Assembly (NCBI RefSeq): GCF_002795845.1
Contig: NZ_CP011797.1
Span: forward strand, 124,001 to 188,000
Direction of reading: 5' to 3'
Source of the DNA: Reinekea forsetii
Lineage (GTDB): Bacteria > Pseudomonadota > Gammaproteobacteria > Pseudomonadales > Natronospirillaceae
DNA length: 64,000 nt
This document shows, piece after piece, positions 2,249 through 17,945 of the stretch (position 1 is its first letter; every line of letters starts with the position of its first letter). The position numbers were made by a program, and so were the translations under genes. Under the pieces are notes generated by a model. That model had not been told where the DNA came from and did not search any database. It worked only from the letters and a program-made list of their open reading frames with translations.

Positions 2249-3838
2249 ATGGCCCTAACGCCGCTGTTTAAAAGTGCCAATATGCCGACTGGGATGAGCG
2301 CGGTACGTGCCCTGGTGGTGGGCCAATTGGGTCATCGGCTGTGGCAAAAGATGGATATCGACATTGCCAATTTTGATCAGGTTATTGAGCGCATGGCGCC
2401 GCAAGTGGATCTGCGTCTCGCCGATGGTGATCGAGTTGAGCTGCGCTTCAAGCGCTTGGTGGATTTTCAACCGACTCAATTGCTGACCTGCAGCGCATAC
2501 TTCATCGCCCTGCAAGCGGCGATGCAGGCCCTGCGCCAACAGGCGAGCGGAACGACCGAGTTCGCTGATTTCGCCAGCCTAGCGCCCTGGGTCAGTTGGC
2601 ACGAGCAGGACCGGCCCAACAGCGAGCAACTGTGGCTGCGCTACAACGAGTTGCGTGCCCTGCTGGAACAGAGCGTGGCCGAGGTGCTAGCGCATCCTGA
2701 CTATCAGCTGTTGGAACGCAATTGGACCCTAGTGCATCAGCTTGTCAGTAATCTCAAGGCCGATCAGGTTCAGGCCGACCGCAGTGAGCCCCACTATCGC
2801 ATCACCTTGCTTAACCTGAGCAAGGCCGAGCTGGTTGAAGATCAGAGCAGCGTGTCCAATCCGCGGGACAGCCAATTCTATGCCCTAGTTTACGGCGATG
2901 AACTTGGGCAGTTCGGCGGCGTCCCCTATCATCTAGCCAGCTTTCAATTTGACCTTAGCGACCGTCCCGCAGACCTGGAATTGTTGGCCGCACTCGCCGT
3001 GACCGCGGCCGCAGCGCAATGTGTGCTGAGTGTCGCCATAGCGCCAAGGCTCTATCTGGACGCGACGCTAGCCGATGAGCCTTTGAGTCAACCGCGCTTT
3101 TACGCATGGCGGGCGTTGATGGAGTCACCCCACAGCCGCTATCTGCTCTTATCGGCCGGGCAGTATGCCTACCGCGCCGCGCACCGTTATCAAACGCTTG
3201 CCTCGGGTATCGGTTTTGCCGAGTCCTTGCCGACGACCCATTGGGCTCACCTGCACATCTGGCATATCTACGAGTTTGCCCGTTCGCAACTGCGGGTCGG
3301 TACCGCCTTGGCCAGTGCCGAGCCGTGCGACCTGCGGCCGTTGCAAATGCGCTCTTGGCCTGCCGATGCCAGTCGGCGCGTGGATGAACGACTGAGCCCA
3401 GAGCGGCAACAGATTCTCGCCGATCTGGGCATTAACAGTTGTCTGAGTAACCAACAACGTATGGCCTTCGCGCCCCGTTTCCAAATGCGCGCCGGGCTGG
3501 CATCGCTCGGCCCAGAATACTCCGTGGCCCAGCAGGATTTACACAGCGAGCTGCTGCTGCTGCAAAACCAGTTTGCCCGCCACCTCAAGGTGCTAATCCG
3601 GGAAGGGTTGGGCCACGGCAGTCCGGATGAAATAAAACAGATGGCCCAGAAATGGCTGCAGCCCTTCGTGCAGAGTCCGGGCTTGGTTAGTCGCTCGCAG
3701 TGGCAACGGCAACCGCTTGAATCGGTCCAGCTGGACTGGCACAGCGACGCTCAGGGTGGGCAGTTATTGAATATTGCGCTGCGCGCCCGCTTACCCGATT
3801 ACGACCGGGCAGTCGATTTGGTGCTGCAATGGAACTGA
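2249..3838 (+). CDS. T6SS contractile sheath protein, TssB-TssC-like fusion
   Basis: The 529-aa product reads as both sheath subunits in one chain. Residues ~15-95 resemble TssB: a conserved hydrophobic strand (ALVVGQLG), then NFDQVIERMAPQVDLRL and the strand ending in FKRLVDFQP. Residues ~120-529 resemble TssC: the HPDYQLLERNW helix, ITLLNLSKAEL, an FDLSDRPADLELLAALA segment (TssC-like 'D...DIELL..IA'), and the C-terminal LSPERQQILADLGI and FARHLKVLIRE motifs. Canonical TssB (~165 aa) and TssC (~490 aa) are separate; this chain is shorter than their sum. The sheath wraps the Hcp tube and contracts to fire it. The gene sits directly before hcp, the usual tssC position. No second tssB or tssC is visible here, but one could lie upstream. 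The fusion is seen in the sequence; that it is the working sheath is inference. Confidence 0.78.
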   Translation: MALTPLFKSANMPTGMSAVRALVVGQLGHRLWQKMDIDIANFDQVIERMAPQVDLRLADGDRVELRFKRLVDFQPTQLLTCSAYFIALQAAMQALRQQASGTTEFADFASLAPWVSWHEQDRPNSEQLWLRYNELRALLEQSVAEVLAHPDYQLLERNWTLVHQLVSNLKADQVQADRSEPHYRITLLNLSKAELVEDQSSVSNPRDSQFYALVYGDELGQFGGVPYHLASFQFDLSDRPADLELLAALAVTAAAAQCVLSVAIAPRLYLDATLADEPLSQPRFYAWRALMESPHSRYLLLSAGQYAYRAAHRYQTLASGIGFAESLPTTHWAHLHIWHIYEFARSQLRVGTALASAEPCDLRPLQMRSWPADASRRVDERLSPERQQILADLGINSCLSNQQRMAFAPRFQMRAGLASLGPEYSVAQQDLHSELLLLQNQFARHLKVLIREGLGHGSPDEIKQMAQKWLQPFVQSPGLVSRSQWQRQPLESVQLDWHSDAQGGQLLNIALRARLPDYDRAVDLVLQWN

Positions 3839-3875
3839 ATAAAATCCATGACCCTATTTGTATAAGGACGTCGAG

Positions 3876-4361
3876 ATGGCAGGTTTATTAAACATCAGTT
3901 CGAGCAGTGGCCCGGTGGTCGAAAACAATGTGCTGTTCGATATGCGGCATGGTTTGGGTTTGGGTGGTATTCAGACCGACGCGCGTGGCTGGGTAACGGT
4001 CAATGATGCCTTCTCGGCGAGCAATCAGACTCTGCGTCATCAGACCTTACAGCTAGTGCGTGCCGTGGATGCTTTCACGCCCCGGCTGATGTCGGCCTTG
4101 ACCAACTATGAGTTGTTTCCCAAGGTCGAGGTGGTCTGGCACTGGGTTAATAAGGAAACCGACGCCGTTGAATACGATTATCGTATCGTGCTCGACGATG
4201 CCCAGCTGATCTATGCCGCCCCGTGGGACTTTATCTCCGACGATGGCATCTTGAAGGAATTGTTAACCTTCAGTTATCGAGAGATTTCCTGGAAATATCT
4301 CGGTCCAGAACCCGGAACTGGGGACTTTATCAGCGAAGCCAGTTCGGAAGGTTTCTTCTAA
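3876..4361 (+). CDS. hcp: Hcp, T6SS inner-tube protein
   Basis: The 161-aa product fits Hcp, the ring protein that stacks into the secreted T6SS tube. Recognisable motifs are the SPxLMxALT-like segment (PRLMSALTNYELFPKVEV), a central beta strand WHWVNKETD..EYDYRIVLDDA, and the C-terminal LLTFSYREISWKYLGP typical of the family. The ATG at 3876 is preceded by AAGGA at 3865-3869 with normal spacing, so it is preferred over an in-frame TTG at 3858. It follows the sheath gene by 37 nt and precedes tssE. Length matches the family. The tail after the last strand is Ser/Glu/Gly-rich and could face the tube end. Confidence 0.9.
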   Translation: MAGLLNISSSSGPVVENNVLFDMRHGLGLGGIQTDARGWVTVNDAFSASNQTLRHQTLQLVRAVDAFTPRLMSALTNYELFPKVEVVWHWVNKETDAVEYDYRIVLDDAQLIYAAPWDFISDDGILKELLTFSYREISWKYLGPEPGTGDFISEASSEGFF

Positions 4362-4444
4362 GATGGTCATTTACCTCGGTCATCGTGCGCGCTTGGCCAC
4401 ATTACTGCGCGGTGCATTGGCACCCATCATTAGGAGACGCTGCC

Positions 4445-4900
4445 GTGCGCCTGCTTGAACGCATGCTCCAAGCCAAACCGGCCAAGCTGGGTTTTCGCCA
4501 TAAGAGCCAAAGCCATGCCGAGCAACACCAGGCGTCGGTTCTAGAGTATCTTGAGCAGAGTCTGAACCACCGCCTGCAACCGGGTGCTGGCGAGTACGGT
4601 CGGGCATACCAACAGTGGTTTCCGGCGTTGAATCGCCTGACCGACGAACAAAGTTGGCCGGATCTATGCGCTTACTTAGCGCATATGGAACCGCGTATTC
4701 AGCACCTGTCGATTCGGGCCTTTCGGGACAGCGAAGGCAGCCAAGTAGTGCAGGACTTTGTGCGCAACCGGGAGCAGAATCGACAACCGGACTTGGTTTT
4801 TGTACTGCATTTTGAACTCATTGCCGACCCCGCAACGCCGCATGAGCGGGCGGTGTTAAAATTGAGCAATGGAAAAATTCACCTCGCCTTAATGGGGTAG
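4445..4900 (+). CDS. tssE: TssE, T6SS baseplate gp25-like protein
   Basis: The 151-aa product starts at a GTG with AGGAGA at 4432-4437. TssE is the gp25-like wedge protein that nucleates sheath polymerisation at the baseplate. Support comes from the N-terminal LLERM start, an RLT-type helix, the LSIRAFRD segment and the C-terminal beta strand PDLVFVLHFELIAD, plus its place between hcp and tssF. The upstream frame stays open to 4223 but that part overlaps hcp and is not family-like. The 83-nt hcp-tssE gap contains a 31-codon ATG ORF (4363-4458) running through the tssE start, possibly only chance. Confidence 0.82.
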   Translation: MRLLERMLQAKPAKLGFRHKSQSHAEQHQASVLEYLEQSLNHRLQPGAGEYGRAYQQWFPALNRLTDEQSWPDLCAYLAHMEPRIQHLSIRAFRDSEGSQVVQDFVRNREQNRQPDLVFVLHFELIADPATPHERAVLKLSNGKIHLALMG

Positions 4901-6564: not shown

Positions 6565-7340
6565 TAACCGATACTCCGCTTCAGGCGGATGCGCTGATCC
6601 AGCGCAGCGCATCCGCCAGCGCCGAGTTTGGCCCACTGCTGCCTGGCTTCTATGGCGCGGCGGTCGAATCCGATGAGCAGGGGCCCATACCGGCCCTCTT
6701 GGCGTTATTGTTAATGCCCTTGCAAGCACAGGCCGTGGCGATGAGCGATCATTACCAGCCGGTACTGCAACAGGCCCGCCATGGCCACAACAGCTTTGCC
6801 AGCTTTCTGCATTCGGATGCCTTAGCCGATCTGACTGAGCCGAGTCGGGGCTTACTTAGCGCTAGCCAATGGGTGCAGGTCAAGCGTCTGTTTGGCGACG
6901 CCACCGGCAGTTGGCAGGGCGCGCTTGCGCTCCTGGCCTGTCTGTTTCCGGGTAAGACCATTAAGCTGATCGAGGGCGTGGTACTGGAGCGCTATCTGCC
7001 CAGTCAACAGATGACCGGTCTGCTCGGTGGCAATGCCTTAGGGGGCGACTCGGTGCTGGGTTATAAACTGCAAGACCGGATGAACGGTTGTCGCTTCACG
7101 CTCGCCACCTTCAGTGCCGAGGATCTGCAGCGCTATACCCATGACGACTATCTGACCCTGACCCGGATCCTGCTGAAGCGCTATATTGGCCAACCACTGG
7201 CCATCAAGCTGCATCTGCACCTGGCCCGCGATGCGCAAAAAAATACCGCGTTGGGTGAGCCAATGAAGGCCATGTTGGGTGTAAAAACCTGGCTCGCCGC
7301 GGCCGAACAGCACGACAAAGAAATTGTGATTGAACTATGA
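6561..7340 (+). CDS. tssG: TssG, T6SS baseplate protein
   Basis: The 259-aa product resembles TssG (VasB/ImpH), partner of TssF in the baseplate wedge. The clearest match is near residue 170-195, LGGDSVLGYKLQDRMNGCRF, equivalent to the family 'LG.dallG.rv.d...kfri' segment, followed by a helical C-terminus. It is shorter than usual (~330 aa). The ATG at 6561 overlaps the tssF TGA and is preferred over an upstream TTG/CTG inside tssF. The stop at 7338-7340 overlaps the ATG of a 30-codon ORF (7337-7429). Confidence 0.85.
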   Translation: MITDTPLQADALIQRSASASAEFGPLLPGFYGAAVESDEQGPIPALLALLLMPLQAQAVAMSDHYQPVLQQARHGHNSFASFLHSDALADLTEPSRGLLSASQWVQVKRLFGDATGSWQGALALLACLFPGKTIKLIEGVVLERYLPSQQMTGLLGGNALGGDSVLGYKLQDRMNGCRFTLATFSAEDLQRYTHDDYLTLTRILLKRYIGQPLAIKLHLHLARDAQKNTALGEPMKAMLGVKTWLAAAEQHDKEIVIEL

Positions 7341-7429
7341 CATTGACCGCGACACCGGGCGCAGTCCGAACCCCTTTTTCCACACGCCACTCAGTCCGCG
7401 AGTTGCGTTACACAGAGAACCGCCTATGA
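7337..7429 (+). CDS. possible 30-aa linker ORF between tssG and the TAXI gene
   Basis: An ATG at 7337 overlaps the tssG stop (ATGA), and this short frame ends in TGA at 7427-7429, which overlaps the ATG of the next gene (again ATGA). The 30-residue product is Arg/Thr-rich with no recognisable domain. The likeliest role, if any, is translational coupling across the 85-nt gap between tssG and the TAXI-type gene; a real small protein is possible but unsupported. No independent Shine-Dalgarno is evident. Confidence 0.25.
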   Translation: MTLTATPGAVRTPFSTRHSVRELRYTENRL

Positions 7430-8757
7430 ACTGGTATCGTTTTAAAGAAGCATTTAACTGGATTGTCATTGGCCTAATCGCGACGGCGATCTTGCTGTGG
7501 GCTTGGCAGCAGGAACAGGACAAGGAAACCATCGTGATCGCGACGGCATCCAAGGGCGGCTATTATTACGAATTTGGTAAACACCTTGAGTCGGAATTAA
7601 AGCGCATCGCCGGCGATCGGTATGTCATCGAAATTCTATCGACCAGCGGCTCAGTCAATAACAGCGAGCTGTTGCGCAAGGGTGCGGTTGATGTCGGCAT
7701 TTTAGCAATTGGTTCGGTCTCATTGCAGAACCTGAGCATCGTGGCCCCCTTGTGGAAAGACTATTCCCATATAGTGGTGCGCAAGGACAGCAACGCCAAC
7801 TCCGTGCAGGAATTCGAAGGTAAGCCCTTTATCCTCGGCGTGCAGGGCTCCGGCTACCGCACCCAGGCTAAGCAGCTGATGGAGTTTTTCAGCGTAGACG
7901 ATGAAACCATGGTCGGGAACGATCTCTATTTTAAGGAATTGTTAAACAATCCCGCTATCGAAGGGGCCATCGTGACTACCGGCCTATTGAATCCGGATCT
8001 ACGCGATGTTTTGTTTAGCGGCCAGTATAAGCTGATGCCGGTTACACCGGCAGAGGGCTTTGCCTTCAACCATATCTTTCACAGTAAGGACTTTATTCCG
8101 GCCGGAGTGTACCCCTCGATCAATGGCCCCTTACCCGCTCAAGCGGTGCCCACGATCAGCACCATGGCCGTGTTGGCCGCGAGTCGAAATATTAGCGATG
8201 ACAAGGTCGCTATCATTCTGGAGGCGCTCAATACCAGTGACTTACGCGCCAAGGCGCCGGTGCTGCTCGACGTCAACCCGACCAACGATCCAATCTTACG
8301 GCTGCTGAATCTGCATCCGATCAGTGCCAAATACTATGATCCAAACTTTGGCTTGAATATCTTTTCCGATGCGGTGACCGGGCTCGAGAGTCTGAAAGAA
8401 TTAATCTTGTTGATGCTGCTGCTGTCCCTCGCGCTGCTCTATAAACTGCGCGATAAGCGAATTAAAAAGGCGCTCAGCCAACAAAATCGCATTGCCAAGG
8501 AACTCTTTGCCACCTTTGAAGAACTGTTGAAAATCGAACGCACGCTGAAGGAAATCAGTGACGTTCGACTCTTAAAGCAATATGAATTCCAGGTACTTAA
8601 TCATAAGAAACGCACGGTAGAAATCGCCAAGGCGGGTGGCTTGGAAATTAACGATGTGTACATGAGTGTTATCAACGAATGCAATGAGCTTTCGGCCCAA
8701 ATCGGTCACCGTCTGCGCAGCCATCAACAGAAGACACAGAACCAGACCGACAGCTAG
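7426..8757 (+). CDS. membrane-anchored TAXI-type solute-binding protein in the T6SS operon
   Basis: The 443-aa product has a short cytoplasmic N-terminus and a transmembrane helix (residues ~11-27, WIVIGLIATAILLWAW). A periplasmic TAXI/NMT1-like solute-binding domain follows, with the typical IATASKGGYYYEFGK opening, then SGSVNNSELLRKGAVDVGIL and GVQGSGYRTQAKQLMEFF. A second transmembrane helix (around residues 324-341, LILLMLLLSLALLY) leads to a charged, probably coiled-coil cytoplasmic tail of about 100 residues. TAXI proteins normally bind ligands for TRAP transporters, but no TRAP permease is adjacent. Membrane anchoring plus a cytoplasmic helix suggests a sensor or adaptor rather than uptake. 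It lies inside the T6SS operon. ATG 7426 is chosen because upstream codons overlap tssG. Confidence 0.78.
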   Translation: MNWYRFKEAFNWIVIGLIATAILLWAWQQEQDKETIVIATASKGGYYYEFGKHLESELKRIAGDRYVIEILSTSGSVNNSELLRKGAVDVGILAIGSVSLQNLSIVAPLWKDYSHIVVRKDSNANSVQEFEGKPFILGVQGSGYRTQAKQLMEFFSVDDETMVGNDLYFKELLNNPAIEGAIVTTGLLNPDLRDVLFSGQYKLMPVTPAEGFAFNHIFHSKDFIPAGVYPSINGPLPAQAVPTISTMAVLAASRNISDDKVAIILEALNTSDLRAKAPVLLDVNPTNDPILRLLNLHPISAKYYDPNFGLNIFSDAVTGLESLKELILLMLLLSLALLYKLRDKRIKKALSQQNRIAKELFATFEELLKIERTLKEISDVRLLKQYEFQVLNHKKRTVEIAKAGGLEINDVYMSVINECNELSAQIGHRLRSHQQKTQNQTDS

Positions 8758-8812: not shown

Positions 8813-10630
8813 ATGCGTGTTATTAAGCCTTTAGAACTGAGTGTGCAGATTCGGCCGTTCGAGTTCAGCCGGCAGAAGATGTTGGCTATCGGCGTGCATT
8901 TGGCGCAGCCCTTCGATGCTCGACGGGCACTGTTTAGCGAACAGGATCTGTGGACCTTGGCGGCGCAATATCTGAGCGAATGGGATGTCTATGATGAGGG
9001 CATGCCTAAGCCCGTCGGTGAGTATCTGGTCTATGGCAGCTATTATGGCTCGGTCCCGATGGCGGCCGACCACGTTCAGGTTCAGGTCGGTTCGCTGAGC
9101 AAAACCCTCAAGGTGATTGGCCGTCGGCAGTGGCGCATCAGTATCGGCAGTACCAATGCGGAGGCCTTGAGTACCTTGCCGATCCGTTACGATGTCGCCT
9201 ATGGCGGAGCGCAGATTAAAGCCAACCCAGTCGGCATCGGCGCCGATGCACTTTTATTGCCGCAGATTGAGCACCCGGATGATCCCTTCAGTCATCCGAA
9301 CCAGCCGATTGTGTCGGCCGGTTTCACCGCGCGCAATATTCTCTGGTCGCCCCGGCAGGAGAAATGGGGCACCTACAGCGGCCGCTGGCAAGAAACCGAT
9401 GCGCCGGGTTTTGCCAAGGATATCGATTGGACGATCTTTAACTTGGCGCCGGAAGATCAATGGCTTAAGGCCGGCTTCTGGCAGGGCGGTGAGCCCTTTA
9501 AAGTGCGCAACATGCATCCGCAGCAGCCTATACTCGAAGGCCAACTGGGACAGTGGCGGATACGGTTGTTCGTGTTAAAAGCCGAACAGCTGTTTGAGTT
9601 GACGGCTAAATTTGAAACCTGTTGGTTGTTCCCCACCGAACAGGTGCAAACCGGCTGCTATCGCGCTCAATGTACGACGGACACCTTCGATGGATCGGAA
9701 ATCAACGCCCTGCTGGTGGCCTATGAAGACCCCTTGGGGCCTGAGAAAACGGTTCAACACTATGCCGACGCCCTCACCCGCCGTCTGGCACCAGAGGGCG
9801 ATATAGAGGATCCGGATGACCTAGCCCTGCGGCCCAATGGCGAGCCGCTGAGCGTCTTGCATCCACCGGAACCGAGTCGCGTGCCCGAGGTGGTCTTACC
9901 GGGCGCGGGCGCCGGCATCGGCTTGGGTGCCTTGGCGGCGTTGGCTAAAATGAAAGGCGGTAAGAGTGGCGCTGAGGCCGAAGCGGCGGTGGCCGCGGAG
10001 GCCAAGGTGGATGACGCGTCAGCGACCGAACTGAGTGTCGGCACCGCGGCGCCAGCCGACGGGGCTGTCCCGGCCAATGTTGAAAACAATGCCCAGGCGC
10101 CGGCAAGCGAAACCGACGCGGCGCCGGAGTCGCGCCCGGAAGACCCGGCCGTCGCCGAAGCCATGGCCGACCTGGATGCCTTGATGGAATTGATGGCCGA
10201 CCAGATCGCCAGTGCTAATGCGCTGATGATGAAAAACCGCCATGCAATGGGTCTAACGGATGAACTGATGGCCGGCCTGAGCGACGAGGGTGGCATCGAT
10301 GCATTGCTAAAAGAAGTCTTGCCGGCCGGCTCGCCGACGGCCGACGTGATCAACGACCCCTCGGCCCTGCAGGAACTGCTCGCCGAGCCGGCGCGGATGA
10401 TGGAGGCAGCCCAGGAGGCCGGTCTAAATGCCGGCGCCCTGGCTGAGCACAAGGAACTGATTGAAGCCATCTTACAGGGCACAGCGACACCCGAGGATGT
10501 CGAAGCGTTGCTGGAAAAAATACCACTGGAAACGGCGGCCAAGATGATGGCTGAGGCGAACCTCGAAAGTGGACTCGATCCGGCCATCTTAACGGCCATT
10601 AAAAAAGCCACCGGATATAAATCGAATTAG
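8813..10630 (+). CDS. DUF2169 T6SS spike-module protein with long C-terminal extension
   Basis: The 605-aa product has a DUF2169 domain in residues ~1-325. Visible motifs are RYDVAYGG, NPVGIGAD, LLPQIEHPDD, an SPRQEKWGTYSGRW block and NLAPEDQWLKAGFWQGGEP, all typical of the family. DUF2169 genes travel with VgrG, pentapeptide, PAAR-like DUF4150 and DUF3540 genes, as here, and are thought to help load or adapt spike cargo. Residues ~360-383 form a Gly/Ala-rich hydrophobic stretch (PGAGAGIGLGALAALAKMKG). An acidic Ala/Glu-rich low-complexity linker and a helical Met/Leu/Glu-rich tail follow. The function of the extension is unknown; it could be a chaperone arm or an uncharacterised effector domain. 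A 54-nt gap separates it from the TAXI gene. Confidence 0.82.
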   Translation: MRVIKPLELSVQIRPFEFSRQKMLAIGVHLAQPFDARRALFSEQDLWTLAAQYLSEWDVYDEGMPKPVGEYLVYGSYYGSVPMAADHVQVQVGSLSKTLKVIGRRQWRISIGSTNAEALSTLPIRYDVAYGGAQIKANPVGIGADALLLPQIEHPDDPFSHPNQPIVSAGFTARNILWSPRQEKWGTYSGRWQETDAPGFAKDIDWTIFNLAPEDQWLKAGFWQGGEPFKVRNMHPQQPILEGQLGQWRIRLFVLKAEQLFELTAKFETCWLFPTEQVQTGCYRAQCTTDTFDGSEINALLVAYEDPLGPEKTVQHYADALTRRLAPEGDIEDPDDLALRPNGEPLSVLHPPEPSRVPEVVLPGAGAGIGLGALAALAKMKGGKSGAEAEAAVAAEAKVDDASATELSVGTAAPADGAVPANVENNAQAPASETDAAPESRPEDPAVAEAMADLDALMELMADQIASANALMMKNRHAMGLTDELMAGLSDEGGIDALLKEVLPAGSPTADVINDPSALQELLAEPARMMEAAQEAGLNAGALAEHKELIEAILQGTATPEDVEALLEKIPLETAAKMMAEANLESGLDPAILTAIKKATGYKSN

Positions 10631-10682: not shown

Positions 10683-11990
10683 ATGAGTGTTGATGTTACC
10701 TTTACCGTTGCCGGCGAAGCCTATTACGTGATTGCGATCACCAATAGCCGCGATGCGGTGAACGAGTTTTTTGCCTTCGATATCGATATCCGTCATGCCG
10801 ACGAACTCAAGCTGTTGGCCTGTCAGGTAAGGAATGCCGCGACCCTATTGATCGGTGACCTTACCTACGAATGTGAAATAGTTGCCCGGCATTACACCCT
10901 CATTACCGATGTCCAGGCCGGCGGTGAATCGGGTCGGCAGCTGAAACTGGCCTTGCGCCCCTGGGGCTGGTCGCGCTTGAGCCACCAAGCGATGCGCGTC
11001 TTTGAAGTCGGTGATGCCCAAGACCCTCTCAATATCGGTTTTGCGGCGGTGCCGACCCTGGCAGAACTGACCCGCTTGCTCAACCAAAGTGCCATTGGTG
11101 AAGACAGCGGTTTTGTCGATTCGGCGGCCGATACCAAGCTGGGCGTGTTTCGCATCGACTGGTGGCAGAACCAGCTTCTGGTGCAAATTCAGGAAACCAA
11201 TGGCGAAGCTTTTACGCGTTTGGTCTGGAAGATGGGCGCATCATTTTTCTACCATGCCTCGCAGAGCGACCATATTTGGCTAACCGTGCCCGACCTGTTG
11301 CCGGTGCCGGTGCAACGTATTGTATTGACCGAAGATGACTTGTCCCAGCTGTCCAGCCACACTTACAGTGTGAATCGTTTTGCGCGCTGGTATCGAGATC
11401 AGTTTAGCCAAATCAATCATATGGCGAACGCCAGCGATACCATTGGTGTCAACCAAGCCAACCAACAAACCGCCTACCAGCAGGTTAAGCTGCAGTCTCA
11501 TAAACCGTTGAGTTGTGACCAGGTATACGAATACACCCCAACTCGGCGCGGACATGAGAAAATGGTCTTTATTCCGCTGGAGGTCAGCCACAGCTACCAT
11601 CATCGTACCGGCTATCATTGCACCGTCCTGGCACAAAGTACCTTGACCGATGACTATTTCGATCTGTCGGTGTTGGATGAAACACCGCCGCCCTTTTTAA
11701 CGCCATTGATCGCCACCATTCACAGTGACAGCGATCAGCTGTCCGGCGATCGCGACAGTCAGATGCGCTATCGGGTGCGCTTTGATTTTGCCCTAACTAT
11801 TGAACAAAAAATAGCTCACCCGAAAGCCTGGTTGTTTCGCTTGCGCCCGAGCTCGTCAAATAATGGCGCAGGTGCCTATGAGCCGATGCCAGTGGGCACC
11901 AAGGTAGTGATCCAGATGATCAATGGCGACCGTGAGCAAGCTGTGATTGCCAGTACCTTCTTAACCAAACATGGCAGGAGAACCGAATGA
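10683..11990 (+). CDS. VgrG-like spike head (gp27 + OB fold), lacking the beta-helix
   Basis: The 435-aa product looks like the head of VgrG without its spike. The N-terminal half has the gp27-type pattern: a small barrel, then CEIVARHYTLITDVQ and LKLALRPWGWSRLSHQAMRVFE, equivalent to the VgrG 'l.l.P.lw.L....s.riFq' segment. The C-terminal ~90 residues resemble the gp5 OB fold: LIATIHSDSD.., YRVRFDFAL, MPVGTKVVIQMINGDREQAVIASTF (VgrG: 'p.vGqeVvv.fldGDpd.Pii.g'). It ends just where the beta-helical needle normally begins. The stop overlaps the next ATG (ATGA). SD AGGAAG precedes ATG 10683. It probably forms the trimeric hub on the Hcp tube. Confidence 0.75.
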   Translation: MSVDVTFTVAGEAYYVIAITNSRDAVNEFFAFDIDIRHADELKLLACQVRNAATLLIGDLTYECEIVARHYTLITDVQAGGESGRQLKLALRPWGWSRLSHQAMRVFEVGDAQDPLNIGFAAVPTLAELTRLLNQSAIGEDSGFVDSAADTKLGVFRIDWWQNQLLVQIQETNGEAFTRLVWKMGASFFYHASQSDHIWLTVPDLLPVPVQRIVLTEDDLSQLSSHTYSVNRFARWYRDQFSQINHMANASDTIGVNQANQQTAYQQVKLQSHKPLSCDQVYEYTPTRRGHEKMVFIPLEVSHSYHHRTGYHCTVLAQSTLTDDYFDLSVLDETPPPFLTPLIATIHSDSDQLSGDRDSQMRYRVRFDFALTIEQKIAHPKAWLFRLRPSSSNNGAGAYEPMPVGTKVVIQMINGDREQAVIASTFLTKHGRRTE

Positions 11991-14182
11991 CAACACTCAC
12001 AGACGTTCAGGAGGCAGAACGAAAGGCCGACGCTGCAGAAGAGAACCTCTCTACCAGTGCGGCAGATCATGCCAGTCAAACCTATATTGCCCTAGGACAG
12101 ACGGCGATTGATCTGCGTTTAGAGGCCAATACCTTAAGGACACAGTATCATACAGCCGCCGGCAATCTGTTCGATCTCGACGTAGAGGAAGCGTTTTACA
12201 TTTCGTCCACATACGGAGACCTGCAACCTAGGCAGAGGGTATCAAAAACAAATTTGAGCAGTGTTGCATTGGCTGAAGCGCACTTTAACACCCAGGAGGG
12301 CGATCGTTACTATTGGTCCAGCGGCAACACCTACACCTTCGGCGGTGGCCATGACTATGCCTTCTGCAACAGTTATAGCGTAACCATGAGTGCCAAAACG
12401 ACAGAAGATAATTCTAACTTCAAATCATGGGACGGTAGCTTCCCCTATGATATTTATAGTCCAAAAAAAGACGAAAAACCGGCTCTTCGAATGTCCTCCT
12501 ACGAAACCGATTTTGCAGACCTACCGGACGCTTATAAGATTGATACTCCGATACCAGATTTTTTTATTCGTGAGCCTAACGATCAAGTTAATTTTGAGGA
12601 CAATGGCGTAGGCAAAAACATTGGCCATACCTACGGCTACCAGCTGGGGGATACCTATGGCATCCAGCTCAGCAAGAACACCCACAATGTCACAGCCGTC
12701 GACAGGGCGCACAGCTTCGAATCGGTTGGAATTAGCGAAAACCACTCCCATGTGGGTATTGATGCAAATTTCGCTGCACATGGGCTTGATGTCGAGTTGG
12801 GTGTTAAAGCCATGGGTTTTGACTTCGGCCTAACCGGAATGGCCTTTGATATTGGCTATACCGGTGCCAGTTTTAACTATAGTTACAAGCTTGTCGACAT
12901 CACTTATGAAAAATCAGTTAATTCGTACCAAATCCTCGATCGACCCGAGTTTCGCTTGTCAGATAAGAATATCCGTTTACTAACCACAACCAAGGCTGAA
13001 ACGATAGCGGGGGAGACGATTGTTTTACAGGTGGAAGACCCCAAGTCGACCCTGATGTTGAAGCCCGCGACCATTCTGGGGCAAGATTCAGAAAGTCTCG
13101 GTGATCTGGTTTTTTTTCAGCGTCTCTGGAAATCTATATTTGGTAGCGCAAAGCTTATCGAAAAGGCTTTTGAAGATGTTTTAAAGGATACCAATTTTAA
13201 TTCAGTCCGCGACGCGGATCATCTAGAAGGTCGATCAAGTAATTATAGTCGGCTCGATGTGGATTTGAATTCCGTTGGCGTAGCGTCCTACGACAGCCGC
13301 CCCGGCGGAACATTTGCAGAGTTGGTGGTGAATAGTGGGCGGTCGGTGATTGAGCTTAATATTCGCGATGCGTCATCAAAATTACGCCAAAATGTTAAAA
13401 ATACAACCCAGTTGTTTGATATAACTAAGGGTATCTGTTACGTCACACATTTCGAAAATATGGATGCCAATTTTATTGGCAAAATGTGGGTCGCCAAAAG
13501 TGCCACCCTCGGTGATGACGCAGGAAAAGGTATTCAAAAGAACAGTGGTGGCATCTACGTACAAAAGATCAAAGACCACTATGCAACTTTGAATCTCGAT
13601 GTCGAGGGTGATGTCATTGATCTGCGGATGCAAACAGGGCCTACTAAGTTTGCTGAACTTAAGTTGGATTCACAAGAGAATATAATTGATCTGCGCACGC
13701 AAGCAGGGTCTGATCATTTTTCCGAGCTCACATTAGATTCAAAAGAGAATATCATTGAGTTGTCTGCGCAAAAGGCCGCGAAAACCGGTGTTTTACAGCA
13801 GTTAGACGGAGCTAAAGGCACCTATAAGGTACTGATCAACGGCAACAGTTCGTCGTTCGAATTGGCCCAGAAAAAAGCAGCGTTAAAGGTGAAGGACGTT
13901 GATCTTAAATTTGCCAGCGGGAAGGCAGAGCTTACGGCTGCGAAAGGTATTGAGTTAGACAGCGCTAAAACCATTAAGCTTGCCGCGTCGACAAAAGTCG
14001 ATGTGAATGGCAGTACGTTCACAAAATCGTCGGTAAAAATACCCTCAGGCAGTGTCTCGATTGGCAGTGCTGCATCGAATGTGAAGATAAGCAGCTCCGG
14101 TCTCACTGTGACAGGTGCTAAGGTGGGCTTTACTGCCAAGGCCATGTTGCAGCTTTCAGGCGGAATTATAAAATTAGGGTAA
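11987..14182 (+). CDS. separately encoded VgrG-like beta-helical spike protein
   Basis: The 731-aa product follows the VgrG head with an ATGA overlap and an AGGAG Shine-Dalgarno inside the head gene. It begins with an Ala/Glu-rich helix (residues ~1-70). A Tyr/Gly/Asn/His-rich region (SSGNTYTFGGGHDY; GYQLGDTYGIQLSKNTHN) and short beta repeats of the LDSQENIIDLR type follow. The Ser/Val/Lys-rich end terminates in KAMLQLSGGIIKLG, close to the usual VgrG needle terminus (LSGG.IK). It most likely forms the trimeric beta-prism that carries the PAAR-like tip. The middle is visibly AT-richer than the flanks. No toxin domain is recognised, but the Tyr/Gly region and the ~400-470 helical part are uncharacterised and could hold activity. 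Confidence 0.68.
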   Translation: MTTLTDVQEAERKADAAEENLSTSAADHASQTYIALGQTAIDLRLEANTLRTQYHTAAGNLFDLDVEEAFYISSTYGDLQPRQRVSKTNLSSVALAEAHFNTQEGDRYYWSSGNTYTFGGGHDYAFCNSYSVTMSAKTTEDNSNFKSWDGSFPYDIYSPKKDEKPALRMSSYETDFADLPDAYKIDTPIPDFFIREPNDQVNFEDNGVGKNIGHTYGYQLGDTYGIQLSKNTHNVTAVDRAHSFESVGISENHSHVGIDANFAAHGLDVELGVKAMGFDFGLTGMAFDIGYTGASFNYSYKLVDITYEKSVNSYQILDRPEFRLSDKNIRLLTTTKAETIAGETIVLQVEDPKSTLMLKPATILGQDSESLGDLVFFQRLWKSIFGSAKLIEKAFEDVLKDTNFNSVRDADHLEGRSSNYSRLDVDLNSVGVASYDSRPGGTFAELVVNSGRSVIELNIRDASSKLRQNVKNTTQLFDITKGICYVTHFENMDANFIGKMWVAKSATLGDDAGKGIQKNSGGIYVQKIKDHYATLNLDVEGDVIDLRMQTGPTKFAELKLDSQENIIDLRTQAGSDHFSELTLDSKENIIELSAQKAAKTGVLQQLDGAKGTYKVLINGNSSSFELAQKKAALKVKDVDLKFASGKAELTAAKGIELDSAKTIKLAASTKVDVNGSTFTKSSVKIPSGSVSIGSAASNVKISSSGLTVTGAKVGFTAKAMLQLSGGIIKLG
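13594..13775 (+). repeat. tandem beta-strand repeats in the spike gene
   Basis: Three imperfect tandem units of about 22 residues each contain a core 'L.LD...N.IDLR.Q.G....ELxLDS'. The two clearest copies include the near-identical DNA around 13665-13695 and 13732-13758 (both encoding LDSxENII). They look like rungs of a VgrG-type triple-stranded beta-helix. Confidence 0.6.
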
Positions 14183-14192
14183 AACGAAATCT

Positions 14193-14759
14193 ATGAAAAA
14201 TTCAATTATTAGCACGCTATGGCTCCTGATCGGCACAATTAGCCTATCGGGCTGCGCCCTATTCGGCGGCGCCAGCCGAGTCCCGGTGAGTGACTACTTA
14301 CGGCAACAGTTCTCCCTGCAAGAGGCCGAACTGAAACAGTTGCAGGTCTATGTCTCGAGTACCATTGTGCTCGAGCGGGTCACCGACAGCAGCGGTGCCG
14401 ACATCGCCGCCGGTGAACTCAATGTGTTTGGCGAGCGACTCGAGCAGATTGTCATTAAACCCTCAACCCCGGGCATTATTTTGCAGGCCACCGAGACCTG
14501 GGCCAAGGTCAGTTTTTCCGAGGGTACCTGGCTGATCTTCGGCAGCTTTGCCGCCAGTCCGAACGACCCCTGGGGTGGCAAATACGCCCTCTATGCGCAG
14601 ACCTGGGCCGGCGGCGTGGGCGAGTTGGAATTTAATGGCCTCAGCTATCGGGCGATTAAAACCAGCGGCCAAGCGGTGCTGGAAATTCGCCAAAAAGATT
14701 TAAACAGACGCGTGATCGAAAAAACCAAGTTAAGCGGCGTGCCGTTGGCAGCAGAATAG
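14193..14759 (+). CDS. uncharacterised lipoprotein of the T6SS operon
   Basis: The 188-aa product has a lipoprotein signal peptide: a KN start, a hydrophobic core, and the lipobox LSGC with the acylated Cys at about residue 23. The mature part is predicted periplasmic and beta-rich (LIFGSFAASPNDPWGGKYALY) with no domain I recognise. It lies between the spike gene and the pentapeptide pair, 10 nt after the former and 4 nt before the latter. It could be a TssJ-like accessory, a periplasmic spike chaperone, or an immunity protein for cargo of this module. Its position among cargo genes favours the last two, but this is inference. Confidence 0.6.
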   Translation: MKNSIISTLWLLIGTISLSGCALFGGASRVPVSDYLRQQFSLQEAELKQLQVYVSSTIVLERVTDSSGADIAAGELNVFGERLEQIVIKPSTPGIILQATETWAKVSFSEGTWLIFGSFAASPNDPWGGKYALYAQTWAGGVGELEFNGLSYRAIKTSGQAVLEIRQKDLNRRVIEKTKLSGVPLAAE

Positions 14760-14763
14760 ACCT

Positions 14764-15735
14764 ATGGATATCGAAGCCCTATTGGCGTCCGGGCAGGTCG
14801 TCGGCTATCAATTGAACGAGCTCAGCTTGACCGGCGTGACACTCGACGGTGTCGACTTCAGCACCAGTCAATTGAGCCAGTGCCGCTTTAGCCAATGCAC
14901 GTTTCGCGCCTGCCGGTTTAACGAGCTGGTGCTGCAGTCGTCGGTCTGGCTCGACTGTGTCTTCGAGCAGTGCCAATTTAACAACAGTCAATTTATTGAG
15001 GTTGAGCTGAGCAACAATCGCTGGCTCGATTGTCAGTTGGATGCCAGCGTATGGCAGCAGGTCACGGCCAACAACCTGCAGTTGGCGCGTTGCCAGGGCG
15101 AGGCGGCCAGTTGGGTCGAGTGCCAGTTCGAGCAGCTGCAGGTGAGCGATTGCGAACTGCCCCAATCGATCTGGGAAAACTGTGCGCTGCTGTCCTCAGG
15201 CTGGACCGGCACCACCCTGACCGGTGCTGATTTCCAAGCCTGTTTGCTCAATAACAGTTGCTTCGAACGCTCACCTGCCCAAGGCCTGACGCTAACCGAA
15301 TGCACCCTGGACGACCTAGTGGTGAGCGACGCCAATTGGGCCAACCTGCGCTGCTACTGTTTTAGTCCGCAGCAGAACCTGCGCTTTGACACAGTGGATT
15401 TGAATTCTGCCAACTTTGCCGACACCGACCTGACCGCCTGCACCTTTTCCGCCTGTCTGTTCGAGGCGACTAACTTTATGGCGGCGACCCTGCTTAACTG
15501 CCAGCTAACTAAGTGCCAGGCAGCCAATGTCACCTGGCTCAATGCCCGACTGAGCAGCTGCGATCTGAGTAAGAACCTGCTGACGCAAAATATTTGGTTG
15601 GGCAGTCGGCTTGAACAGGTTAGCTTTCAAGGTAGCGATCTGTTCGAAAGCGACTTCCAGCACGCGACCTTTGTCGAATGCAACTTCAGTCGCGCGCACA
15701 CATTGAACACCCTATTCGAGGACTGGCAACCGTGA
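14764..15735 (+). CDS. pentapeptide-repeat protein 1 of the T6SS spike module
   Basis: The 323-aa product is built almost entirely of pentapeptide repeats with frequent Cys at strand ends (QCRFSQCTFRACRFNEL; FSACLFEATNFMAATL), predicting a right-handed quadrilateral beta-helix. Pentapeptide proteins accompany DUF2169, DUF4150 and DUF3540 in other T6SS loci. A structural or adaptor role at the spike is likelier than gyrase protection, which is the known role of some family members. There is no signal peptide. The end overlaps the next gene's GTG start (GTGA). Confidence 0.85.
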   Translation: MDIEALLASGQVVGYQLNELSLTGVTLDGVDFSTSQLSQCRFSQCTFRACRFNELVLQSSVWLDCVFEQCQFNNSQFIEVELSNNRWLDCQLDASVWQQVTANNLQLARCQGEAASWVECQFEQLQVSDCELPQSIWENCALLSSGWTGTTLTGADFQACLLNNSCFERSPAQGLTLTECTLDDLVVSDANWANLRCYCFSPQQNLRFDTVDLNSANFADTDLTACTFSACLFEATNFMAATLLNCQLTKCQAANVTWLNARLSSCDLSKNLLTQNIWLGSRLEQVSFQGSDLFESDFQHATFVECNFSRAHTLNTLFEDWQP

Positions 15736-16862
15736 CCACCGAGCCAACTAAGCCTGAATCATCCGGGCCAGAGCCAGAGGCGCCCAGCGCGAACGATACC
15801 GCGGTTGAGATTGAACCGGGTCACTGGCTGACCGCCTATGTAAAGGACGGCCGCGAGTTCGACCGGGCCAGTTTTAAGGGCGTCGATCTGAGTGGTGTCG
15901 ACCTGGCCGGCGGGATTTTTTTGGCCTGCGATTTTTCCGCTGCGCTGTTAGTGACCACCGACTGTCGGTATGCCAGCTTTGTTGACTGCGCTTTTCATCA
16001 CGCCGATCTGACAAGTTTTCTGGCCCAAGGCGCGACGTTCGAGCGTTGCCAATTCCTCAATGTGCTTGCCACGGGCGCCGATTTCAGCGACTGCAATTTC
16101 GATAACTGTAAATTTGAGATGTTTAAAAGTACCGACAGTCTGTGGCTGGGCTCAAGCTTTGGTCAGTCGGCGCTGAGCCGTATCGACTGGCAACGGGCCG
16201 ATCTGTCGCAGCAATCCTTTAGTCAATGCGCGTTGGCCGATTTAGATTGCGGCGCGGCCACCCTGATGCGCTGGACGATGAACGAGTCGACGCTCAGTCG
16301 CGTGCATGTGCAGGGCGCTTTCGGTCACGAGCAGTCATACTGGAAAAGCACCATCGACAGCATCAACTGGCATGAGGTGGCGATGATCGGCAGTCTGTTT
16401 ATCGAGTGCTCCTTTCATGCCGTGAGCTTTGCCGATGCCGTCTTGAGTAAAAGCACCTTTAAAGCCTGTGGCCTGTATCGGGCTGATTTTCAGCGGGTAG
16501 TGGCCGATAACAGCGGCTTTAGCGACTGCGATCTGATCGGGGCCGACTTCAGCCACGCGCATTTGCCGCAGACGGTGTGGCAGGGCGCCAATGTCGAGCT
16601 GGCGAGCTTTAAACAAGCCTATTTGGATATGGCGATTATGGCTAACCTGCAGGCCAAGGGCGCTGACTTTACCGAGGCGCATTTGGTTTACGCCGATCTG
16701 TCCTTCGCCAATCTACACGACGCCCTGTTCCTCGACGCCAAGCTGGACGGCGCTGATCTATTTGCGCTGATCGACCACCAGACCGTCTGGTTGGGCGCCA
16801 ATCGCGAAAAAGCCAAGGCGATCGATCCGAAGCGGGTTGCCGCACAAAAATTTAAACTTTAG
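15732..16862 (+). CDS. pentapeptide-repeat protein 2 of the T6SS spike module
   Basis: The 376-aa product has a Pro/Glu-rich N-terminus of about 30 residues. A long pentapeptide-repeat helix follows (FKGVDLSGVDLAGGIF; FSDCNFDNCKF; ADLSFANLHDALFLDAKLDGADL), with the classic A(D/N)LxX pattern strongest at the C-terminus. GTG 15732 is chosen because it overlaps the upstream stop; the open frame continues to 15678 inside the neighbour. It probably arose by duplication or co-evolved with the preceding gene, though the two are not close copies. Confidence 0.85.
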   Translation: MTTEPTKPESSGPEPEAPSANDTAVEIEPGHWLTAYVKDGREFDRASFKGVDLSGVDLAGGIFLACDFSAALLVTTDCRYASFVDCAFHHADLTSFLAQGATFERCQFLNVLATGADFSDCNFDNCKFEMFKSTDSLWLGSSFGQSALSRIDWQRADLSQQSFSQCALADLDCGAATLMRWTMNESTLSRVHVQGAFGHEQSYWKSTIDSINWHEVAMIGSLFIECSFHAVSFADAVLSKSTFKACGLYRADFQRVVADNSGFSDCDLIGADFSHAHLPQTVWQGANVELASFKQAYLDMAIMANLQAKGADFTEAHLVYADLSFANLHDALFLDAKLDGADLFALIDHQTVWLGANREKAKAIDPKRVAAQKFKL

Positions 16863-16902: not shown

Positions 16903-17310
16903 ATGTTTTTAAATTCCCAGATGGGCGCCATGAATATGGCCATGCCCGATGTCTGCAAGACGCCGGTACCACCGGCTGGCCCGGTCCCGATGCCCTACCC
17001 CAACTCGGCGCAAAGCACCATGGCCAACCCGAGTACGGCCTCCAAGAAGGTGATGGTCGCCAACGCACCGGCCCATTCGCTTAAAACCGTGGTGACCTTG
17101 AGCATGGGCGATAATGCCGGGGTCGCCGGCGGGGTCATGTCGAGCAAGATGATGGGCGAGTGCCGTCACAGTAAAGGCAGCATGAAGGTGATGATCGAAG
17201 GCCAGCCGGCAACCCGCCTGACCGACATGACCATGCAGAACGCCATGCCTGGCAATGGCGTGGGTGCCACCATTAAACCGGCGCAGACCAAAGTATTGGC
17301 GCCCTCATGA
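16903..17310 (+). CDS. PAAR-like DUF4150 spike-tip protein
   Basis: The 135-aa product matches the DUF4150/PAAR-like family that caps the VgrG needle: MFLNSQMGAMNMAMPDVCKTP start, then TPVPPAGPVPMPYPN, GDNAGVAGGVMSSKMMGECR and KVMIEGQPATRLTDMT. Cys and His residues in these motifs fit metal binding at the tip. It has no C-terminal toxin extension, so cargo would have to attach through another protein. A good Shine-Dalgarno (AAAGGAGAG, ~16889-16897) precedes ATG 16903. Its stop is a few bases before the DUF3540 gene. Confidence 0.88.
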   Translation: MFLNSQMGAMNMAMPDVCKTPVPPAGPVPMPYPNSAQSTMANPSTASKKVMVANAPAHSLKTVVTLSMGDNAGVAGGVMSSKMMGECRHSKGSMKVMIEGQPATRLTDMTMQNAMPGNGVGATIKPAQTKVLAPS

Positions 17311-17321
17311 AGGAGTTGCAG

Positions 17322-17945
17322 ATGACCAATGTCCACGCACTGGCCAACCCTTGGCCAGCAGCCAACGGCCTTATTCTCGGTGAGGTCGTGCTGTTAACGC
17401 AGACCGGCTGCCGAGTGCGCACCGACCAAGGTCTGTTGAGCGCCGAACTGGCCGCGAGCTGTTTGCTGCAACCGGGGCTCGGCGATCGGGTCGCACTGCT
17501 GGTCGATGGTGCTCGGTTTTATCTGACCGCGGTATTGATCGCGCACGATAGCGGCAGCCAGCGTTTGCAAGTACCCGGGGAGCTAGTGATTGCCGCGGCG
17601 TCGATGCATTTTGATAGCACTGAATCCTTGAGCGTACAAACTCGGTCGTTAGAACTCAATGCCGCTGCGGCGCAGTTTCAGTTCGGCCGCTTTCGCCAGC
17701 TGGCGCTAAAAATGACGGTGATTGCCGAAAAACTGGACGTCACCGCTGAGAAAATTCATCGCAGTGCCAAGCAGGAATTCACCCTGTTCCACCAGCAGTT
17801 TGAACGCATCCTCGACAGCAAAAATACCCAGGCCGATCGCTGGTTTCAGCGTGTGCACAAGCAATGGGTGGCACGCAGCGAACGAACCACCATAACGGCA
17901 AAAAAAGAAGTGAAGATCGATGGTGAACGGATTGATCTAGGGTGA
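17322..17945 (+). CDS. DUF3540 T6SS spike-module protein
   Basis: The 207-aa product fits DUF3540, a family found with DUF2169 and DUF4150 in T6SS spike modules. The N-terminal ~85 residues look like a small OB-like barrel (GEVVLLTQTGCRVRTDQG; LGDRVALLV). They are followed by beta and helical stretches and a C-terminal KKEVKIDGERIDLG end that resembles VgrG needle termini. ATG 17322, with AAGGAG at 17310-17315, is preferred over ATG 17307, which overlaps the DUF4150 stop (ATGA). It is the last gene of the T6SS operon; its 3' end overlaps a GNAT relic on the other strand. Confidence 0.78.
   Translation: MTNVHALANPWPAANGLILGEVVLLTQTGCRVRTDQGLLSAELAASCLLQPGLGDRVALLVDGARFYLTAVLIAHDSGSQRLQVPGELVIAAASMHFDSTESLSVQTRSLELNAAAAQFQFGRFRQLALKMTVIAEKLDVTAEKIHRSAKQEFTLFHQQFERILDSKNTQADRWFQRVHKQWVARSERTTITAKKEVKIDGERIDLG

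Follow-up and report, generated by a model that had tools for sequence, protein, structure and literature searches.

The head and spike genes of Reinekea forsetii likely encode, between them, a single VgrG (TssI) of a type VI secretion system (T6SS) with a loading apparatus of the Tvp class III type. The first gene would yield a hub with OB domains and the second a long needle in which a helical segment at the start stands in for the neck. Both genes lie in a stretch of 64,000 nucleotides, referred to below as the window; the relevant features are listed in Table 1.

Table 1. Features of the head–spike region and of the adjacent loading genes (window coordinates)
Feature	Position	Strand	Basis
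TvpA-like protein (DUF2169), 605 aa, no Pfam pentapeptide match	8813..10630	+	PF09937, 3.5e-54
Head: VgrG hub (gp27-like) and OB, 435 aa	10683..11990	+	ORF, profile alignment
OB domain of the head, residues 337–428	11691..11966	+	blastp to fused VgrGs; PF04717 19.1 bits, sub-threshold
AGGAG, probable ribosome binding site of the spike gene	11976..11980	+	sequence; 6 nt before ATG
Spike: probable separate needle, 731 aa	11987..14182	+	position, needle motif, strands from residue 421 (low-confidence model)
Predicted N-terminal helices of the spike, residues 4–61, possible coil	11996..12169	+	AF2 single sequence, block pLDDT 50–67
Motif common to the spike and the needles of fused VgrGs, residues 110–135	12314..12391	+	PSSM, 22.8 bits
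Lipoprotein-like protein, 188 aa, 10 nt after the spike gene	14193..14759	+	LSGC by eye; no Pfam at E 0.5
Pentapeptide-repeat protein 1	14764..15735	+	PF13599, 8e-34
Pentapeptide-repeat protein 2	15678..16862	+	PF13599, 5.2e-27
PAAR-like tip protein	16903..17310	+	PF13665, 2.7e-34
TvpC-like protein (DUF3540)	17307..17945	+	PF12059, 2e-31

The head is a complete VgrG N-terminal module, a gp27-like hub followed by an OB domain. Residues 11–426 align with a profile of 12 VgrG heads (hhalign, 97.2%, E 4.1e-11), the control TssF reaching only 0.2% with the same profile, and fold matches also agree with the full N-terminal module. The OB part is 27.7–37.8% identical to five fused VgrG frames (blastp), and its PF04717 score is under the cut-off of 23.8 bits. 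Thus the gp27-like hub domain and the OB domain after it are as in canonical VgrG/TssI, but the needle is not on the same chain, the gene stopping where the OB domain ends, at 11990. The profile alignment bears out the preliminary description, in which the head ended after an OB-like fold. The head has no Phage_GPD match, being too divergent for this profile, and its tblastn matches in relatives span the OB domain alone. A plain protein search of genome contigs, plasmids and viral contigs confirmed no relatives, a sequence search of the PDB gave no match, and the PHROGs search produced a single weak one (E 0.16).

The surroundings are those of a T6SS. Pfam matches upstream in the genome identify TssB, TssC, Hcp, TssJ, TssK, TssL and TssM. 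In the window, the order is a TssBC-like sheath paralogue, an Hcp-like protein, a weak TssE candidate, TssF, TssG, a TAXI protein, the DUF2169 protein, head and spike, followed by the lipoprotein-like protein, two pentapeptide proteins, the PAAR-like protein (PF13665, which we take to be DUF4150) and the DUF3540 protein. Hence the Tvp class III gene set (DUF2169, DUF3540 TvpC, pentapeptide protein, PAAR-like) is present together.

In Serratia marcescens Tvp class III, as described in the consulted sections of PMC13373197, TvpC, which has no hub domain, forms a pre-complex with TvpAB, TvpB and Paar1, and is replaced by VgrG1, which has a very long needle. A given cap holds either TvpC or VgrG1, the two complexes being mutually exclusive, and these sections state that the mechanism of the transition from one to the other is still to be determined. 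The vai1 gene after vgrG1 is an immunity gene against a VgrG1-linked activity (PMC13373197). The window is similar to the Serratia locus, as far as the latter is described there, in having DUF2169, pentapeptide, DUF3540 TvpC and PAAR-like genes around a long-needle VgrG, and in the presence of a gene directly after the needle gene, lipoprotein-like here and vai1 there. However, VgrG1 is one protein, whereas the window has two, and DUF2169 and pentapeptide repeats, fused as TvpAB in Serratia, are carried here by the 605-aa DUF2169 protein and two separate pentapeptide proteins.

The 731-aa protein encoded by the spike gene is probably a needle, with a helical segment replacing the VgrG neck. 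Support for its being the needle is weak: its nature rests on weaker evidence than that of the head, because protein searches of genome contigs, plasmids and viral contigs confirmed no homologue. The PHROGs search of the spike was empty as well, and eight chains of a G-protein-signalling modulator matched in the PDB (E 0.026–0.11) were taken as chance. One argument for a needle is a motif at residues 110–135; three fused VgrG sequences, from genomes G386 and G121, have it in their needle part too. The PSSM derived from these three sequences gives the spike a score that 0/5000 shuffles reach (the best has 14.4 bits), although the figure is optimistic, since the seeds were picked after BLAST had revealed the likeness between the spike and the needles. 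The best other operon protein scores 0.6 bits. A second motif is weaker: its best site, reached by 18/5000 shuffles, overlaps the first motif, and its second site is reached by 44/5000.

Compared with six fused needles, the spike beats 1000/1000 shuffles by the summed BLAST score, 985/1000 by the best single match and 997/1000 by the collinear chain. On the other hand, the reversed spike outscores the real one in the chain score, the HMMER profile of the same six needles does not detect the spike, and hhalign gives 12.5%; together with the post hoc choice of motif seeds and the lack of a homologue, these results count against a two-gene VgrG. The preliminary description had seen a VgrG-type needle terminus in the second protein. 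Its end (...LQLSGGIIKLG) does resemble the ends of VgrG and TvpC by eye, but all family matches are sub-threshold, both in Pfam (xxxxx_C 14.1 bits, DUF4097 12.8, DUF3540 12.2) and with the NCBIfam Francisella TssI/VgrG model (14.6 of 100 bits).

The single-sequence AF2 model of the spike is poor (mean pLDDT 34.2). The two N-terminal helices are its best part, and strands appear at residues 421 to 723 of this low-confidence model. Pfam shows no OB domain in the spike, although the quality of the model leaves room for one. A heptad pattern at residues 26–53 is reached by 3/300 shuffles. Out of three fused needles, two have no such pattern (169 and 237 of 300 shuffles) and one has a weak one (44/300); that of TvpC is stronger than that of the spike (0/300). 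The separate needle of genome G078, considered below, lacks an N-terminal heptad pattern, a further point against the two-gene reading. In the needles of genus g107, the best heptads of L097 and L099 are near the C-terminus, and the N-terminal one of L102 is reached by 62/300 shuffles. Hence the N-terminal coil may not be general among split needles.

The GC3 of the spike gene is 0.487, compared with 0.564–0.785 in 13 other operon genes. In fused VgrGs, the GC3 of the needle part is lower than that of the head part in four cases out of five (in one by 0.012 only) and higher in the remaining one, and hence low GC3 proves little as a sign of a foreign needle. The spike also carries a repeat of about 25 aa near residues 540–595, seen by eye.

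The following order of events may be envisaged. The head would sit in the baseplate, while the DUF2169, pentapeptide and TvpC proteins would form a cap enclosing the PAAR tip, which sits on the short needle of TvpC. The free long needle, a separate trimer, would then take the place of TvpC under the cap and dock on the OB face of the head, perhaps via its N-terminal coil. We put forward only tentatively, as a possibility with the odds against it, that the head is a permanent hub on which the short TvpC, a placeholder with the chaperoned PAAR tip, and the long spike, which is fired, are exchanged at each assembly. Were this so, VgrG splitting would be a repeated solution to the problem of loading too long a needle while leaving the closed membrane complex undisturbed, and the N-terminal coil would be a detachable coupling. 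More generally, a two-piece spike might account in part for the loading of very long spikes, and with hub and needle as separate proteins the steps can be studied one at a time: the choice of the needle that binds the hub, and the order of binding.

The preliminary description saw needle exchange as a way to swap cargo. We found one head, one spike and no second cargo needle: the genome has no PF05954 match at E 0.001 and no paralogue of the head or the spike at E up to 10, and PF04717 matches the head and, with E 0.77, a 744-aa frame. Several needles serving as a cargo swap were therefore rejected, there being no spike paralogue. The same searches revealed no full-length VgrG elsewhere, the finding that would have spoken against the split, although a copy that has diverged as far as the head, itself not detected by PF05954, could have escaped them. 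Apart from the spike, TvpC is the one needle-like protein found. If exchange happens, what would agree with the Tvp literature is replacement of the placeholder TvpC by the firing spike.

The spike may, in addition, carry the harmful function, since the lipoprotein-like gene stands where Serratia has vai1; this is an argument from position only. An alternative, which we regard as rather unlikely, takes the harmful function further: TvpC is the permanent needle of the head, the 731-aa protein is cargo or a harmful fibre on the spike, and the lipoprotein gene provides immunity. TvpC is indeed a clear DUF3540 protein, the VgrG homology of the 731-aa protein is unproven (hhalign 12.5%, HMMER negative), and the gene following it has its counterpart in vai1 after vgrG1 (PMC13373197, sections consulted). 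However, in the same account TvpC lacks a hub domain and gives way to VgrG1; moreover, the spike gene overlaps the head gene and lies where fused VgrGs carry the needle, and 0/5000 shuffles reach its motif score. We therefore retain the 731-aa protein as the probable needle of a two-gene VgrG.

At E 1e-5, DUF3540 is found in 12/369 genomes of the class, that of the window included. Six of them show only fused VgrG in the regions inspected, five have a split one (in three lineages, counting the window), and G049 was placed in neither group: it has a 906-aa ORF beside the DUF3540 gene, hub-like by eye and with no Pfam match, and its genome has no PF04717 match. A fused VgrG directly precedes the loading genes in G121, G208, G084 and G052. 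In G296 the fused VgrG frame is at the contig end. In G362 a 1424-aa fused VgrG is on a small contig of its own, and the T6SS genes are in the same order as in the window (TssJ, K, L, M, TssBC-like, Hcp, TssF, TssG, TAXI). Finally, G386, from the same family as the window and outside the 12-genome sample, carries a fused VgrG of 1048 aa, encoded before the loading genes. Thus in G121, G208, G084, G052, G386 and G362 both parts are in one gene, in line with the premise of the preliminary description that VgrG normally runs on into its needle. Since these relatives have the same loading genes, the split is probably secondary.

The split holders are the window, G078, and G103, G220 and G320 of genus g107; the last three also have fused VgrGs. 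The G078 head (509 aa, Phage_GPD 138 bits) runs slightly past the OB domain and is followed, after a 41-nt gap, by a gene of 206 aa whose needle matches stay below the cut-off (xxxxx_C 15.9 bits, Gp5_C 12.2); the pair lies beside the Tvp genes. In genus g107, the head is followed by a separate gene of 249–256 aa, away from the Tvp genes. Both halves are under purifying selection there: dN/dS is 0.052, 0.131 and 0.171 for the needle and 0.143, 0.081 and 0.090 for the head, the deeper pairs being near saturation (dS 1.6–2.0). Two of the three g107 heads have no N-terminal part in frame, which weighs against the two-gene reading. Several g107 VgrG copies are in pieces (L101, L103 and L104 of G320). 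That three lineages have splits, both halves being under selection in one of them, suggests that a T6SS can do without a covalent link between hub and needle.

A head profile matched 60/312 class genomes at E 1e-15. Of 68 near-complete heads (alignment starting no later than profile position 62 and ending no earlier than 463, counted from the match table), three are in frames shorter than 530 aa, G078 (517), G220 (494) and G103 (454); as the profile includes the G078 head and misses that of the window at this E-value, the figure is rough and undercounts divergent splits. Other short VgrGs were rejected as splits: those of G016 and G166 are short fused proteins, that of G178 is cut by the contig end, and that of G092 is fused.

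The Francisella T6SS belongs to a different subtype, and the gp44/gp45 pair of phage Mu is a comparable two-chain hub and needle. As set out in the consulted parts of PMC5924787, phages have hub and needle as two chains, and so does the Francisella spike, formed by PdpA and VgrG (PDB 6u9e/6u9f/6u9g). The Francisella pair works alike, and we do not claim membership of the window pair: Francisella VgrG has 164 aa, the spike 731, and no sequence relation was found. The OB domain of the window is on the hub chain, as proposed for Francisella, whereas in T4 gp27/gp5 it is on the needle chain (PMC5924787). Split vgrG loci in some Acinetobacter strains are noted in one sentence of PMC6838775, the passage mentioning no Tvp context, and truncated VgrGs without C-terminal sequences are reported from Neisseria (PMC10210955, in the part consulted). 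Hence split VgrG is already in print for Acinetobacter, Francisella and phages, and the window is a variant in the Tvp context; our literature search, which covered the papers in part, yielded no account of VgrG being split in a Tvp system.

Given these precedents, the two-chain state might be an ancestral one, inherited from a phage-like tail. The divergence of the head, which Phage_GPD misses, and the tblastn matches restricted to the OB domain agree with this. Still, fused VgrGs occur in the systems closest in gene order and loading genes, and the OB domain is on the other chain than in T4, so we consider an ancestral state improbable compared with a secondary split.

At the junction, both ORFs have the coordinates initially reported. 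The stop of the head and the start of the spike share ATGA (spike ATG at 11987, head end at 11990), and the AGGAG preceding it fits the Shine–Dalgarno sequence of the preliminary description. The spike is read in frame -1 with respect to the head; its frame is open for 17 codons upstream of the ATG (748 vs 731 aa), with no earlier start in the ORF listing. By eye, no VgrG neck remnant is visible in the other two frames across the junction, and no canonical slippery heptamer is seen in the overlap. The absence of a neck remnant argues against a recent frameshift or a sequencing error, the latter having been thought unlikely from the outset. A formerly fused gene now in decay, or ribosomal frameshifting that yields a fused product, could draw on the -1 frame and the broken g107 copies, but was rejected as very improbable, given the missing remnant and heptamer, the spike's own ribosome binding site with the ATGA overlap, and two long open frames.

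Several features of the wider cluster deserve mention. A promoter and terminator scan gave no excess over shuffles. Neither TssH nor TssA was seen adjoining the T6SS cluster, and none of the proteins reaches the ClpV cut-off (TIGR03345, 884.95 bits); the highest-scoring one (831.7 bits, 866 aa, G000:C1:444251-446737, outside the window) may be ClpB. The second Hcp-like gene (3858–4361) overlaps the weak TssE candidate (4223–4900; TIGR03357, 13.9 of 53.2 bits) by 139 nt in the plain ORF call, and the latter probably starts later. The 529-aa sheath paralogue after TssM (2249–3838) has VipA and VipB matches in one protein, separate tssB and tssC being also present upstream of it (L001:10934-12936). 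G362 likewise has a fused 575-aa sheath after TssM (L020:6157-7881) and separate copies beside the Tvp genes (L069). Between TssG and DUF2169 there is a TAXI/NMT1 solute-binding protein with a C-terminal extension (7330–8757); G362 has a TAXI protein after TssG too (L020:11599-13023), with 27% identity over 429 aa (6e-63).
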